DNA of 45,238 bases from positions 1-45,238 of the forward strand of contig CALAIY010000102.1 in the NCBI GenBank assembly GCA_937922595.1. The letters are read 5' to 3'. The first letter of the stretch is position 1, and every line of letters begins with the position of its first letter. Shown piece after piece: positions 14,010 through 22,244 of this stretch. This stretch comes from an uncultured Verrucomicrobiales bacterium. Its GTDB lineage: Bacteria; Verrucomicrobiota; Verrucomicrobiia; Verrucomicrobiales; DEV007. The position numbers were made by a program, and so were the translations under genes. The notes beneath the pieces were generated by a model that was not told where the DNA came from, ran no database searches, and saw only the letters and a list, made by a program, of their open reading frames with translations.

Positions 14010-15878
14010 TTATCTCCAGAGTGAGCGAAGAAGCTTCCAGGAGGACGCCAATCGCATTATAATGGCCGGTTTTGAGAATTCGCCATCATTTTTTTTATTT
14101 CGGAATGGGCTGGTCAGTTTTCCCTTAGATCCGTGTGCGATGGTGCTCACTAAACCGACGAGCCGATGATCCTTGTCGAAGACGCCGCAGCCACTGCCTC
14201 CAGTCGAATATTCAGCTGAGATTTCCATGTATGTGGTGTTGTACATGAACGAGTGACGACGTACGTAGCCACGATCGTAGGTGTAGAATCTTTCTTCCGA
14301 GTGATGGACGAGAATGACGTCATCGCCGCTTTTTGGTGCATGGGGGGCTAGCTGAACGAAGGGGAATCCGCTTCCTTCAATCTGGAGTAGAGCCACATCG
14401 CCTTCCTTGTGGGCGGCGAGAATTCTCGTAATTGGGTAGAGTTTCCCATCGGTTGTCATTACTGCGACTGGCTCATTTTTGCCGGATACGACGTGGTGAT
14501 TGGTGAGGAATAAACCTTCTGCGCTTACGAAAACGCCGCCAGCCGTCCAGGTGGAGCTGTCTCCCTGTCCGCCAACTACAATTCCTGTCGCTTGCGTGAT
14601 TTCAGTGAGGTTAGGAGTTTTTGCTTTTCCCCCGATGGGGGCTGGAAGGTCGCAGTGCAGCGGAGCCTGTTCTATATCAAAATTGTCCCAAGCCTTCGGG
14701 TGTTTCTCGATGAGTTTATCTCGACGCGGGATGAGTTCATTGAAGATTAGCGTATCGTTGATGGGTTTCGCTAGGCTTTGGAATGGCGAGAACGGTTCAT
14801 TTTTGTTTTTCTTGTGAAGTCCAAGTGCCCGTTTCACCGCGTCTTCCATTCCTTTGAGGCCTTCTTTTACCTGGATATGCTTGCCGTCCTGATTGAGTAG
14901 AACGTAGGTTGGGAATGCATTTATTTCATATCCTTCAACGAGTTTGTAGTCAGGATCGAGAATGTTGCGCCAGGTCACTGAGCCATATTTTTTATAGCAC
15001 TTTTGGAGGGATTCTTTCGTGTCCATTCCTGCGACGCCGAGTATTTCGAATCCGTGTTTGGAGTAGTCTTGATGGAGTTTCCTCAACTGAGGAAAGGCTT
15101 TGATGCAGGCTTTTCAGGTGGTTCCCCAAAAATCAATTAAGACTACTTTGTCTTTGTAGTCGGCAAGGGCGACTTGCTGATCATTGTCCGCGAGGCCGGC
15201 TAGAGGTAGGTCTTCCTTTTCAATGAAGCGCCACTGCTTTCTTTGTTGCTCAATGAAATCTTGGTCGGTGCCTGCATATTTGAGGGTTTCTCCATCTGGC
15301 TCAAACCGTAGGGGGATGTTTTCAATGTCATCATCGCCGTAATTGATAGCAACCCAGATTCGATTTGAGGATGGTTTGACTCCGTTTTTGGGGGGGACGA
15401 TTTTGGCACCTAGTTCTCCTGGTAAAAGTGCTTCGCTCATCAAGTAGAGGTCTTTTATTGCCGCGTTCCGGTCGGGGTTCTGCTTGAGCAGGGTTAAAAG
15501 GCTTTTTTCAAAGTGTTCGTTTTGTGTGGGAGAGCCTCCAATTCCGTTCTGATCGAGATACCATTTGGGAAATTCGAATGAATCGAAGCCGATGTTTTCG
15601 GGAGTGGCTGAAACAGGGGTGCCATCAAGCCATGTTTTTGGGATCTCCTCATCTGCGGCGACAGCTTCGGCTACGGTCAACATCGCCATTTGGAGGAATT
15701 CCTCAGCGGCGGTGTCGGTCATCTGCGCTAGGGCAGCTTCGCCTTCGCCCGATTTGAGTTGGGCTGCGATGCGGATGAATGTCTGCTCTGCCTTGGAGTG
15801 GGCTTCCTGGGCGCTTAGCGGCGTAAGTGTCGCGATAGTGAACCCTGCGAAAGCAAGTAGATGGGAGAGGGATGGCAT
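14010..15878 (-). CDS. Putative selenoprotein: thioredoxin (UxxC)-trypsin-like protease fusion
   Basis: Two open frames (15878-15117 and 15113-14010) are in one frame, split by a single UGA at 15116-15114. Read as selenocysteine this gives 622 residues. Residues 1-23: signal peptide (cleavage LSA-QE). ~25-220: unassigned helical region. ~220-350: TlpA/thioredoxin-like domain, DKVVLIDFWGTT-U255-KAC258, then FPQLRKLHQDYSKHGFEILG and the cis-Pro NAFPTYVLL (Pro323). ~360-622: trypsin-like protease, His462 (TNHHV), Asp494 (GDVALLQ), Ser562 (GGSGCG). The UGA takes the place of the first CxxC cysteine, the second Cys is kept, and coding continues unbroken for 367 codons. A SECIS-like hairpin follows the UGA. 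The product is exported, so it likely acts on periplasmic or surface proteins. The alternative is a Cys-to-stop mutation in a dying gene, but no other damage is visible. A paralogue of the protease half lies 546 bases away. Confidence 0.75.
15078..15116 (-). promoter_or_regulatory. UGA selenocysteine codon and SECIS-like hairpin
   Basis: On the minus strand, UGA (15116-15114) is followed by 18 nt, then TTTCCTC (15095-15089), loop AGTT (15088-15085) and GAGGAAA (15084-15078): a perfect 7-bp stem. The apical loop begins 25 nt after UGA, inside the 16-37 nt range described for bacterial SECIS elements, and has a G in its first two positions followed by U, as required for SelB binding in known cases. 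The hairpin lies wholly within coding sequence, as bacterial SECIS do. Confidence 0.65.
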
Positions 15879-16423
15879 ACGATGGTGTTATAAAATTGCT
15901 GTCCCCATGGCAAAGTCTGCGAAATGTTCTGACACGCAGTATGACGCGCCAGGACGGGGGGAGTCACTGGTGGGTGCAAGGTTTAGCGCTGTCTGGAATA
16001 CCGCAAATAGCGAAATTTCAGACAGTGATACCCTGGTAGGTGCTGTGTTCGGTGTCATTGGGGAAGAGTGGGAGGAGACCCTGTTTGACAAGAGGTTACC
16101 AATTTCACTTGAAAATGAGATTGTTCGCACTATAGCGGCTATTTACTGATTGCAGGCAAGGCGTTTTGTTGTTTTTCTGCGTAGGTGAGAGAGGGGAGTG
16201 GCTATGGTAATTGATGTAGGTTACTGGTTTTGATTTTTGGTTCAAAAATTTTAAAGAAGTGATTTCTCATGGCTTGAATACCGATGCCTATCCGGCTATC
16301 TGCTGATCGGCAGATGCTTCGCTGCCTTATTCGATTTGAATGAGACTGGGATGCAGAGCACAAAAAAACTTGGGATTGCGCTGATGAAGCGGCCTGCAAA
16401 AAAGTAATTTACTAGTAGTCACG
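15879..16423. other. Intergenic region between the divergent protease genes
   Basis: 545 bases shared as the upstream region of two divergent related genes. A frame at 15907-16149 (plus) could encode 80 residues (MAKSAKCSDTQ...) but has no recognisable domain and is listed only as possible. A 7-bp inverted repeat CTGTCTG (15989-15995) / CAGACAG (16019-16025) and an ATCTGC/GCAGAT hairpin near 16300-16315 are visible. Around 16230-16260 the sequence is A/T-rich and probably holds the promoter for the plus-strand protease. Nothing else was recognised. Confidence 0.5.
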
Positions 16424-17392
16424 ATGTTGAAAATTCGATTCACTTGTACCCTATCTGTCACCTTAGCATTCGCGATGGCGGCAGCGTCGTGGCTTCCGGC
16501 TCAGGAGCCGGATGTGAACGCAGATCCGGTGGTGACTGAGCCTGAGGGGGATAGTGGGGAGCCTGCGGCGGAGGAGGAGGCTTCCTTTATCCTGTTTGAA
16601 AATTTTGCGGAGCCGATCAATGATTTACTGATCATGAGCGAGTTGAAGTCGAGGCACTCAGCGCTCGTCGCAAAAAATCCGAAGGCGTGGGATGGATTTA
16701 AGTTTCTGGAGGCAGCGAAGCAATGCGACCTTGCTGCTCCGATTTCTAAAGGCGCGGGGCGGCCGAATCTTGAGATGATTGCGCATGCGACCGGTGTTGT
16801 GGTGGGTGGAAGTGGCAAGGGTGCCATCTGGACTGCTGGCGGCGTTTTTGTAAGCGCGGATGGGCTTTTCCTGAGCAATCACCATGTGGCCAAGAATGGT
16901 AAATGGCCACTATCTGTAATGACTACGGATGGAAAGCTGCACCGCGTCAGTGCTGTGCTTGCTGCTGAAAAAAGTAGGGATGTCGCTTTATTTCGGGTTG
17001 AGGGGGATGGTTTTCCTTTCGTCCCGCTCGCTGCTCAGGCGCCGGAAAGTGGGCAGGAAGTTATTATGATTCACCATTCGGAGGGGCGGTTTTACACGTA
17101 TGATCGTGGTCACGTGCGAAGGCATTCATTCATGGATGGGGCCACCTACATGGAAATCTCGGCTGAGTACGCGATTGGCGGAAGTGGGTGTGGAATTTTC
17201 AACAGCAATCATGAGCTGGTTGGGCTGGTGAGCACGATAGGCTATGGCTTGGGGGATGCTCTTCCAGATTTGGCTGATGAAGAAGTGGCATTAGAGAGTG
17301 AAGATGAGTATGAAGATGATGGGGTGCCAGATTTTGTGATTTTGGTAAGGATGGCGTCATCGTGGGAATCTATCCGTTCCCTCTGGAAATAG
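16424..17392 (+). CDS. Secreted trypsin-like serine protease (paralogue of the selenoprotein's protease half)
   Basis: A 322-residue exported protein: signal peptide 1-26 (cleavage near LPAQE), an acidic/Pro-rich linker (~28-53), then a DegP/trypsin-like domain. Catalytic residues: His154 (LSNHHV), Asp186 (RDVALFRVEG), Ser254 (IGGSGCGIF). Long stretches match the C-terminal half of the 14010-15878 protein: EPIND, NPKAWD, CDLAAPI, ATGVVVGG, WTAGGVFVSA, HHSEGRFYTYDRG, VRRHSFM, TYMEISAEY. It has no thioredoxin domain. No PDZ domain follows, so it is a short stand-alone peptidase. The C-terminus is acidic (EEVALESEDEYEDD). Its last 36 bases overlap the convergent nucleotidyltransferase gene. Confidence 0.88.
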   Translation: MLKIRFTCTLSVTLAFAMAAASWLPAQEPDVNADPVVTEPEGDSGEPAAEEEASFILFENFAEPINDLLIMSELKSRHSALVAKNPKAWDGFKFLEAAKQCDLAAPISKGAGRPNLEMIAHATGVVVGGSGKGAIWTAGGVFVSADGLFLSNHHVAKNGKWPLSVMTTDGKLHRVSAVLAAEKSRDVALFRVEGDGFPFVPLAAQAPESGQEVIMIHHSEGRFYTYDRGHVRRHSFMDGATYMEISAEYAIGGSGCGIFNSNHELVGLVSTIGYGLGDALPDLADEEVALESEDEYEDDGVPDFVILVRMASSWESIRSLWK

Positions 17393-20663: not shown

Positions 20664-22244
20664 CTAGTTTTCGACCTTTAGCTTTAAGAAACGGCGGTCA
20701 CCGGTTTCGAATGGTGTGCTCGGTTCAAACGTTACTGTTTCGAAGTTGTAATCGAGGGGAGTGGTCGTTTCCGTTCCGGTGAGTGTTGTCCAGCTCGTTA
20801 AGTTTTGAGAAACCATGAGGGTTCCGGTGATGTCTGTGCGGCGGCGTCGGGTGTAAGTGAAGGTTCCGTCTGCGCTGGGGGCGAGATTGGGTTCGCTTGA
20901 GTGATTTCCGGCGTCGAGGCCTAGGAGGTATTCGGTGAGATTTGCGATACCGTCGCCGTCTGGGTCGCCATCTTCGGTTGTATTGGTGAGGCCATTGACG
21001 AAGTCTGAGAATGGTCGATACACCTGGGTCGTTTCCGAGGTTGTGCCGCTATTGGGGGCTCCCGATGCGCTGATTGTGCCGTTTAAGACGAGCTCGCTGG
21101 TGGTTTCCGCCGGAGGCGTGTAGGTGATCTGGAAATTTGATGAATTGTTTCCGCTGATTGAGGTGCGTGAGGCGGTGACGACACCTGATGTGTGGGAGGC
21201 GCTCCAGCCAGGTCCAGAAAAACCGCCGTAGACTCCTCCGGGGGGGAGGGTGATTTCGACGTTGATATTCATAGCCGAAAATGACGATGTGTTGTTCGCG
21301 GTGAAGTTGTAAGTGAAGGGGATTCCTCCTTGGGCAGGGTCGAGTGAATCGGTGCTTGAAAGCGTGAGCATAGGAGATGGGCCATTTCCTACGCTCGTTA
21401 CAGAATACCCTTCTGGAGCAATAAAGGCGTTTATCTGATCGATGTAGTGGGGGACGAAGGTATCGAAGGATCGCTTGAGGGTCGTCGTGACATCAACGGC
21501 TGTGTGGACTCCAATGACAGCGAGGTTGCCGTTGAGGATGATGAAAGTCGGATCGGATGAATCGCCGCTTTGAAAATAGACATCGTCTTGGCTTCGGCTG
21601 TTGTCGGTCGTGTCTACTCGAAATTCAAAGCCGCGTGTGGCATTGATTGGGGGGCTGGCGGATGGCACCGTGAAGGTGAGAAAGGGATTATTCGGATCGG
21701 AGGTGTCGTCCTTGATGGTGCCCGTTCCCCAGCGGGCATGGAGACCTTGGAGGAAGATGGGCTTATCGTAGTAATCGGATTCGTTAGGGAGGTCTGCGAT
21801 CGGGTAAAATGTGATACTACTGTGGACGTCTTGGGCGAGAGTGCCGATGAGGAGGTCGGTCGCTTCATTTGAGGTGTTCACTGTGGATTCTAGTGAATCG
21901 ATGACGTAATTGCGGATGGTTCCATCGATTCCGAGAAATCGAAGCGAGCCTCCAGAGACCATTGCAACGTGTTTCGCTGTGATAAAGTGTCGTGGTGAAA
22001 TCATCGTCGCGGTGTCGTTGCTATCAGCGAGGCTCCATCCGATCCCGGAGAGATCGTATCCGTTCATGAGGAAGTTGCTGTTCGTGGAGGCGGTGGCTGA
22101 TGTCCCTGGAAATCCAGAGGCAAAGCGATTGTGCTTCGTTGGGGTGTAGGTGCCAAAGACGAGGGCTTCGGCAGATCCCAGCGCGCTCAAAATGAAAAGA
22201 GCAGCGATGAACCATTGGGGGGAAAAGGTTGCCATAATTACCAT
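20664..22244 (-). CDS. Large secreted trypsin-like serine protease
   Basis: A 526-residue exported protein. The signal peptide is residues ~4-27 (the second ATG, at residue 4, is an equally good start). Residues ~60-290 are a trypsin fold: His92 (FITAKHV), Asp130 (NEATDLLIGTL), Ser229 (FQSGDSSDPTFI, a variant of GDSGGP) and IGVHTAVD. Residues ~295-410 form an Ig/CARDB-like beta domain (PFTYNFTANNTSSFSAMN). Next is a thrombospondin type 3-like calcium motif DGDPDGDGIANLTEYLLGLD. The last ~60 residues carry the Verrucomicrobia-type terminal module ending DRRFLKLKV. It is likely a surface or extracellular protease. Unrelated in detail to the two shorter proteases at 14-17 kb. Confidence 0.85.
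   Translation of the reverse strand: MVIMATFSPQWFIAALFILSALGSAEALVFGTYTPTKHNRFASGFPGTSATASTNSNFLMNGYDLSGIGWSLADSNDTATMISPRHFITAKHVAMVSGGSLRFLGIDGTIRNYVIDSLESTVNTSNEATDLLIGTLAQDVHSSITFYPIADLPNESDYYDKPIFLQGLHARWGTGTIKDDTSDPNNPFLTFTVPSASPPINATRGFEFRVDTTDNSRSQDDVYFQSGDSSDPTFIILNGNLAVIGVHTAVDVTTTLKRSFDTFVPHYIDQINAFIAPEGYSVTSVGNGPSPMLTLSSTDSLDPAQGGIPFTYNFTANNTSSFSAMNINVEITLPPGGVYGGFSGPGWSASHTSGVVTASRTSISGNNSSNFQITYTPPAETTSELVLNGTISASGAPNSGTTSETTQVYRPFSDFVNGLTNTTEDGDPDGDGIANLTEYLLGLDAGNHSSEPNLAPSADGTFTYTRRRRTDITGTLMVSQNLTSWTTLTGTETTTPLDYNFETVTFEPSTPFETGDRRFLKLKVEN

Follow-up and report, generated by a model that had tools for sequence, protein, structure and literature searches.

Selenoproteins Related to the Locus

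A UxxC thiol-disulfide isomerase-like selenoprotein with a TlpA-like domain (cd02966) has been described (PMC1088965; PMC13188914), and the 119 families or subfamilies of a 2026 review include both UxxC thiol-disulfide isomerase-like and UGC TlpA proteins (PMC13188914). The word protease has no occurrence in the main text of that review. Trypsin-like and MucD-like selenocysteine (Sec) proteases were predicted in the GOS ocean metagenomes (PMC2398784), and a trypsin-like selenoprotein family is also included in PMC9312934.

The gene analyzed here shares the UxxC motif in a TlpA-like thioredoxin domain with the isomerase-like selenoprotein; for that protein, however, the available text mentions neither a protease nor an N-terminal domain of the kind found here, whereas our gene encodes both (PMC1088965; PMC13188914). 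The GOS trypsin-like selenoproteins resemble our product in combining a predicted Sec with a secreted trypsin-like domain, but their Sec replaces a Cys within the trypsin domain itself, according to the text available, whereas in our protein U255 lies in the thioredoxin domain and the protease spans residues 448-576 (PMC2398784). The putative secreted serine protease MucD of GOS likewise carries a Sec redox motif in a protease-linked protein, but the available description gives CxxU in a Thioredoxin_7/PDZ context instead of UxxC in a TlpA-like domain (PMC2398784), and no PDZ domain was found among the Pfam matches of our protein up to an E value of 0.1. GOS MucD apparently corresponds to the PDZ / Trx7-PDZ entry of the 2022 and 2026 reviews. 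The NCBIfam family NF041054 (ResA-like WAxxUGC motif-containing protein) has a ResA-like domain as well, but our protein scores only 19.2 bits against its cut-off of 300 and falls outside the family.

The original prediction had presented a UxxC thioredoxin fused to an exported serine protease as an unfamiliar family. The architecture is indeed new, and no UxxC TlpA-protease fusion was found among the titles and abstracts listed from the open-licence literature; nevertheless, UxxC TlpA-like selenoproteins, Sec trypsin-like/MucD-like proteases and Cys-type TlpA-trypsin fusions already exist. The gene is very probably a real selenoprotein gene with a new architecture.

The Predicted Read-Through Gene and Its Product

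The window is the whole stretch of DNA analyzed, 45,238 nucleotides long, which constitutes contig C102 of a 3.27-Mb draft genome (174 contigs, 92.88% complete) of an uncultured Verrucomicrobiales bacterium. Its features relevant here are as follows:

14010-15878, minus strand: selenoprotein gene with a signal-peptide-like start, N-terminal domain, TlpA/ResA-like UxxC thioredoxin and trypsin-like protease
15804-15878, minus strand: probable signal peptide, about residues 1-25 (by eye)
15213-15803, minus strand: N-terminal domain, about residues 26-222 (profile search)
14856-15191, minus strand: TlpA/ResA-like thioredoxin domain, residues 230-341, with U255xxC258 and P323 (Pfam, PDB matches)
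15114-15116, minus strand: in-frame TGA, read as selenocysteine U255 (translation, paralogues, motif census)
14151-14537, minus strand: Trypsin_2 domain, residues 448-576, with H462/D494/S562 (Pfam, motifs)
15879-16423, no strand: intergenic stretch that separates the divergent gene pair (sequence and ORFs)
16424-17392, plus strand: divergent neighbour, a trypsin-like protease that stands alone and whose start resembles a signal peptide by eye

Under the standard code, the gene appears as two minus-strand ORFs, one at 15114-15878 (254 aa) and the other at 14010-15086 (358 aa). When the UGA is read through, conceptual translation of 14010-15878(-) gives 622 residues with one TGA, which becomes U255 in FWGTT-U-KAC, and no second stop occurs across the 367 codons downstream. 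The ORFs and the read-through translation thereby confirm the claims of the original prediction that a single in-frame UGA separates two long open frames and that it falls on the first position of a thioredoxin UxxC whose second Cys is kept (U255/C258). NAFPT and the triad H462/D494/S562 are also intact after the UGA, at the positions first given: FWGTT begins at residue 250, NAFPT at 320, TNHHV at 459 (H462), GDVALL at 493 (D494), and GGSGCG at 560 (S562). P323 of NAFPT, the cis-Pro position, is an invariant alignment column, and C564 sits two residues past the catalytic S562. The computed mass is 69.0 kDa for the full-length protein (with C in place of U) and 28.0 kDa for the product terminated at the UGA.

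The reading as a thioredoxin-protease fusion is backed by Pfam domains in one frame, namely AhpC-TSA, Redoxin and Thioredoxin_8 within residues 227-338 and Trypsin_2 at 448-576, all above cut-off. The best PDB sequence match of the thioredoxin domain is ResA (1st9, 1su9), and the best fold matches of the thioredoxin part of a structure model are ResA entries as well (those in the top 12 with TM 0.79-0.85 on the target). The model, built on a 26-row alignment, has a mean pLDDT of 54.5 and is good for the thioredoxin part only; its N-terminal domain is of low confidence, and we assign no fold to that domain. The ResA structures are those of Bacillus subtilis, whose ResA is a thioredoxin domain alone with CxxC, unlike our protein. 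With a thioredoxin fold in the model, the xxxC and the cis-Pro site, the domain is TlpA/ResA-like. The protease part gave weak sequence matches in the PDB (RsgI9, MucD and AlgW), and its His-Asp-Ser triad within a Trypsin_2 domain is indicative of a putative S1 trypsin-like protease.

Conceivably, the transcript could yield two proteins without any Sec, with translation stopping at the UGA and reinitiating at the TTG of 15084-15086, as the 358-aa ORF with its TTG start opens right after the UGA. That split, however, would cut through the active-site motif, and a complete thioredoxin domain would be found in neither half; the other three paralogues are split alike, with about 100 codons remaining, and the hairpin and sel genes described below would be left without explanation. 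We therefore regard reinitiation as highly unlikely.

Paralogues and the New N-Terminal Domain

Three paralogues in the same genome, which share the N-terminal and thioredoxin domains of our protein, each carry one TGA at the same codon, within FWGTWUAGC (C70), FWGTWURGC (C126) and FWGTWURGC (C28). The four UGA genes lie on four separate contigs, and none has a further stop. Identity to our protein over the N-terminal and thioredoxin region is 39% for C70, 37% for C126, and 30% for C28. The C28 protein (paralogue D) has a trypsin-like domain of its own, placed first with the thioredoxin last, the reverse of the order in our protein.

At an E value of 0.001, a profile of the N-terminal domain matched only one of the 387 genomes of the phylum set, the genome under study, in four copies. 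The matches listed outside this genome all begin at model position 179 (of 348) or later in the class set (286 genomes), and at residue 208 or later in the relatives set (95 genomes). The domain gave no Pfam match above cut-off and no convincing PDB match. It is a new domain of about 200 residues, seen within the 387 phylum genomes only in this one.

The UGA Column among Homologues

From a pattern census of 134 distinct TlpA-type motifs in the fetched loci, the first position of the motif was found to be Cys in 123 and TGA in 11 (four of them from the genome under study), while Ser, TAA and TAG were never found at this column although the pattern admitted them. The pattern demanded the second Cys and missed one gene with a divergent motif, L167. 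The expectation that homologues would show either Cys or UGA at this column was thus borne out, and the gene, with an in-frame UGA at a redox position where homologues carry Cys, would on sequence grounds qualify as a bacterial selenoprotein. Stop codons elsewhere in homologous frames had been named as an observation that would speak against Sec. We inspected seven of the TAA/TAG-flagged rows of the relatives-set matches, and all seven proved to be gene-end stops after a CGPC thioredoxin; the motif is also CGPC in the two TGA-flagged rows inspected (L176 and L177).

A second UxxC TlpA-like selenoprotein family, with FWGDWUGPCRAMYPHERSLV and near variants, was noticed in seven genes of five other genomes (loci L168-L172 and L167; genomes G330, G231, G345, G111 and G349). 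In six of the seven genes, the UGA is followed at a distance of 31 nt by a strict GAGCGGUCGCUC-type hairpin, and SelB was above cut-off in all five genomes. Besides, a planctomycete contig, UWMA-0294 (L126 6070), carries FWGTWUGPC with 332 codons open past the UGA and a weak hairpin.

A sequencing or assembly error, by which TGC or TGT was misread as TGA, might be suspected in a draft of 174 contigs. The TGA, however, occurs at four places on four contigs, and a UGA is found at the same codon in eight more genes of other genomes, so that the chance of such an error is negligible.

A bSECIS-Like Hairpin Downstream of the UGA

The sequence just past the UGA can fold as follows:

15078-15095, minus strand: bSECIS-like hairpin with a 7-bp stem and an AGUU loop that starts 25 nt after the UGA

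Spacing, 7-bp stem and AGUU loop are identical in our gene and in those on C70 and C126 (three of the four paralogues), and agree with the bSECIS model as given in the available text of PMC13188914. When synonymous codons were shuffled and the rules of section 5 of that review were applied, only 1, 7 and 3 of 2000 shuffles each matched the hairpin for our gene, C70 and C126, respectively. In the C28 gene, the hairpin is interrupted by a single C-A mismatch and fails the strict criterion. The hairpin alone has a computed energy of -7.4 kcal/mol, borderline against the published limit of -7.5, and the fold of the 61-nt region reaches -8.4.

Codon usage around the UGA is conserved in a peculiar manner. 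The codons CCT-CAG-TTG (codons 8-10 past the UGA), which lie exactly beneath the hairpin, are the same in all four paralogues, and TTG is a rare Leu codon in this genome; the remaining invariant residues with synonymous codons at positions -11 to +7 each show two or three codons. Y at +17 and E at +23 each use a single codon as well, although chance would more readily account for this (p 0.24 and 0.15). Across the four paralogues, 27 of the 28 cells of the helix are paired, against 36-71% in slid registers. A hairpin of at most -6.9 kcal/mol accompanies 9 of 12 UGA motifs versus 2 of 123 Cys motifs (Fisher p 3.7e-10), and the genome's own four genes taken alone (3 of 4) still differ from the Cys motifs (p 1.2e-4). 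Nevertheless, the 61-nt region shows no extra stability over dinucleotide shuffles (z -0.25, 63 of 200), and covariation in the hairpin, from four sequences only, is not significant (257 of 500 shuffles).

Genome-wide, the pattern TGA-N22-CTCAGTTG occurs at five places, of which four are the paralogues. The fifth, on C63, was rejected as a UGA gene and taken as a chance match because its TGA has no redox motif.

Selenocysteine Machinery of the Genome

The prediction called for the sel genes in the same genome, and selA (483.5 bits), selD (255.7 bits) and the tRNA-Sec gene selC (60.5 bits against a gathering threshold of 47; anticodon TCA, that is UCA) were found, the former two above cut-off; selB was not found in the assembly, either by HMM or by a search with the protein of a family member. 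None of the TIGR00475 matches in the genome reached the selB cut-off; they include EF-Tu, CysN and IF2 by eye, and the other GTPase-like matches, also below cut-off, were set aside by size only.

The tRNA-Sec with its UCA anticodon bears on another explanation, in which the UGA is read as a different amino acid through a suppressor tRNA or a changed code, and in favour of which we found nothing. TGA terminates 7 of 27 chosen genes of the window and homologues have a redox Cys at the site, all of which makes such decoding exceedingly improbable.

Of the 58 genomes in the family set, 34 carry selA above cut-off and 28 carry selB; 26 carry both and 22 neither. When the selA-positive family genomes are sorted by printed completeness alone, without regard to contamination, selB is present in 20 of the 21 that reach 90%, the genome under study being the sole exception, and 7 of the 13 below 90% have no selB match. 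The presence of selB in all 20 of the other more complete genomes could suggest that this species has recently abandoned its Sec system, with selB lost and the UGA genes now truncated. Against this, selA, selC and selD are intact, the four UGA genes have no further stop, and the assembly is estimated to be 92.88% complete; the 7 of 13 less complete selA-positive genomes without a match indicate that missing sequence does produce such a pattern. We consider a recent loss improbable. An assembly gap is the simplest reading of the missing selB, because four UGA genes remain intact.

The tRNA-Sec gene adjoins nusA/infB-like genes and lies near an integrase-like ORF (L001 1501-1595 and 2-997; names by eye), which suggests that selC may be an insertion site in this genome. 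The selD gene (L055 445-2763) is, by eye, fused to an NDH-like FAD domain and seemingly has Cys at its active site; a SelD fused to an NDH-like FAD domain is described for many marine SelD in the available text of PMC2398784.

Origin of the Protease Fusion and Selection Past the UGA

The product of the divergent neighbour is 56% identical to residues 361-622 of our protein, and the two come out as sisters (100/100) when 35 protease domains from the fetched loci are placed in a tree. A copy of this neighbouring gene, brought in by fusion, is the probable source of the protease part. In the same tree, the C28 protease forms a group (100/100) with those found in Cys-type TlpA fusions. By sequence, a protease is thus joined in two of the four paralogues, in opposite orders and from different protease subfamilies, which is new; from the separate placement of the two proteases in the tree, thioredoxin and protease are best read as having been joined twice independently. 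Such recurrence would support a functional coupling of the two domains.

Cys-type fusions, in which, as in our gene, a single frame encodes first a TlpA-like and then a trypsin-like domain, were found in 3 of the 10 loci fetched for long frames (L216, L219 and L221). They differ from our gene in having CGPC instead of UxxC and a protease of the paralogue D subfamily. Ahead of the fusion, these three relatives share an N-terminal region that is different from that of our protein.

Comparison of the thioredoxin part with that of C70 (paralogue B) gave a dN/dS of 0.35 before the UGA and 0.36 after it, and comparison of the protease part with the neighbour gave a pN of 0.29 against a pS of 0.80, with dS saturated. 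Constraint is alike on both sides of the UGA, and purifying selection acts past it. These observations bear on whether the TGA is merely a nonsense mutation that truncates a decaying pseudogene and leaves the remainder as a relic. TGA being the ordinary stop of 7 of 27 chosen window genes, and selB not being found, would suit such a relic; yet the same-codon TGA recurs in three paralogues only 30-39% identical to our protein, and the 367 downstream codons are stop-free, under purifying selection and with the triad kept. Decay is accordingly a very improbable account of the gene.

Taken with the three sel genes and a column restricted to UGA and Cys, the constraint past the UGA backs the selenoprotein reading, which is strongly supported, with export, Sec insertion and catalysis as predicted properties. 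Counted against it are the missing selB, the mismatch in C28, the unremarkable stability of the 61-nt region, the non-significant covariation of the hairpin, and its -7.4 kcal/mol. With high confidence, we regard the locus as a Sec-coding gene in which the UGA would be decoded as Sec by way of the downstream hairpin, yielding a product of about 69 kDa that would be exported and would comprise a lineage-specific N-terminal domain, a Sec-thioredoxin and a trypsin-like protease. It is one of four UxxC paralogues.

Possible Function of the Fusion

In the mechanism we prefer, albeit tentatively and at somewhat short of even chances, disulfide reduction or reshuffling is coupled to degradation. The Sec-thioredoxin would reduce or reshuffle the disulfides of proteins in the periplasm, and the protease tethered to it would degrade those that are opened in this way or are damaged. 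Given the gene order, and if Sec decoding is right, the protease would be made only upon Sec insertion; when selenium is scarce, translation would end at the UGA and leave the N-terminal domain alone.

The original idea of a redox switch acting on proteolysis could operate through C409 and C564, which match C101 and C256 of the neighbour, with C564 near the catalytic Ser. We give this switch less weight because the neighbour has no thioredoxin domain and a Cys is found at the place of C564 in some relatives only. More speculatively, and rather doubtful as a whole, these lineage-restricted exported Sec-thioredoxins, with their new N-terminal domain and two independent thioredoxin-protease joinings, may constitute a selenium-dependent redox-proteolysis module that would work either by opening disulfides or through the C564 switch, and whose protease would need read-through.

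If true, the gene would add a selenoprotein architecture that joins a Sec redox centre covalently to a serine protease, with synthesis of the latter contingent on Sec insertion, and its genome would hold four UxxC paralogues of this kind. As the gene consists of two truncated pieces under the standard code, genes of this kind may easily be missed. Because TlpA-like and trypsin-like domains have been joined repeatedly, in Cys and Sec types, the idea that disulfide chemistry is coupled to periplasmic proteolysis lends itself to testing. The window encodes a further protein, exported-looking and trypsin-like by eye, at 20664-22244 on the minus strand, a few kb from the gene.
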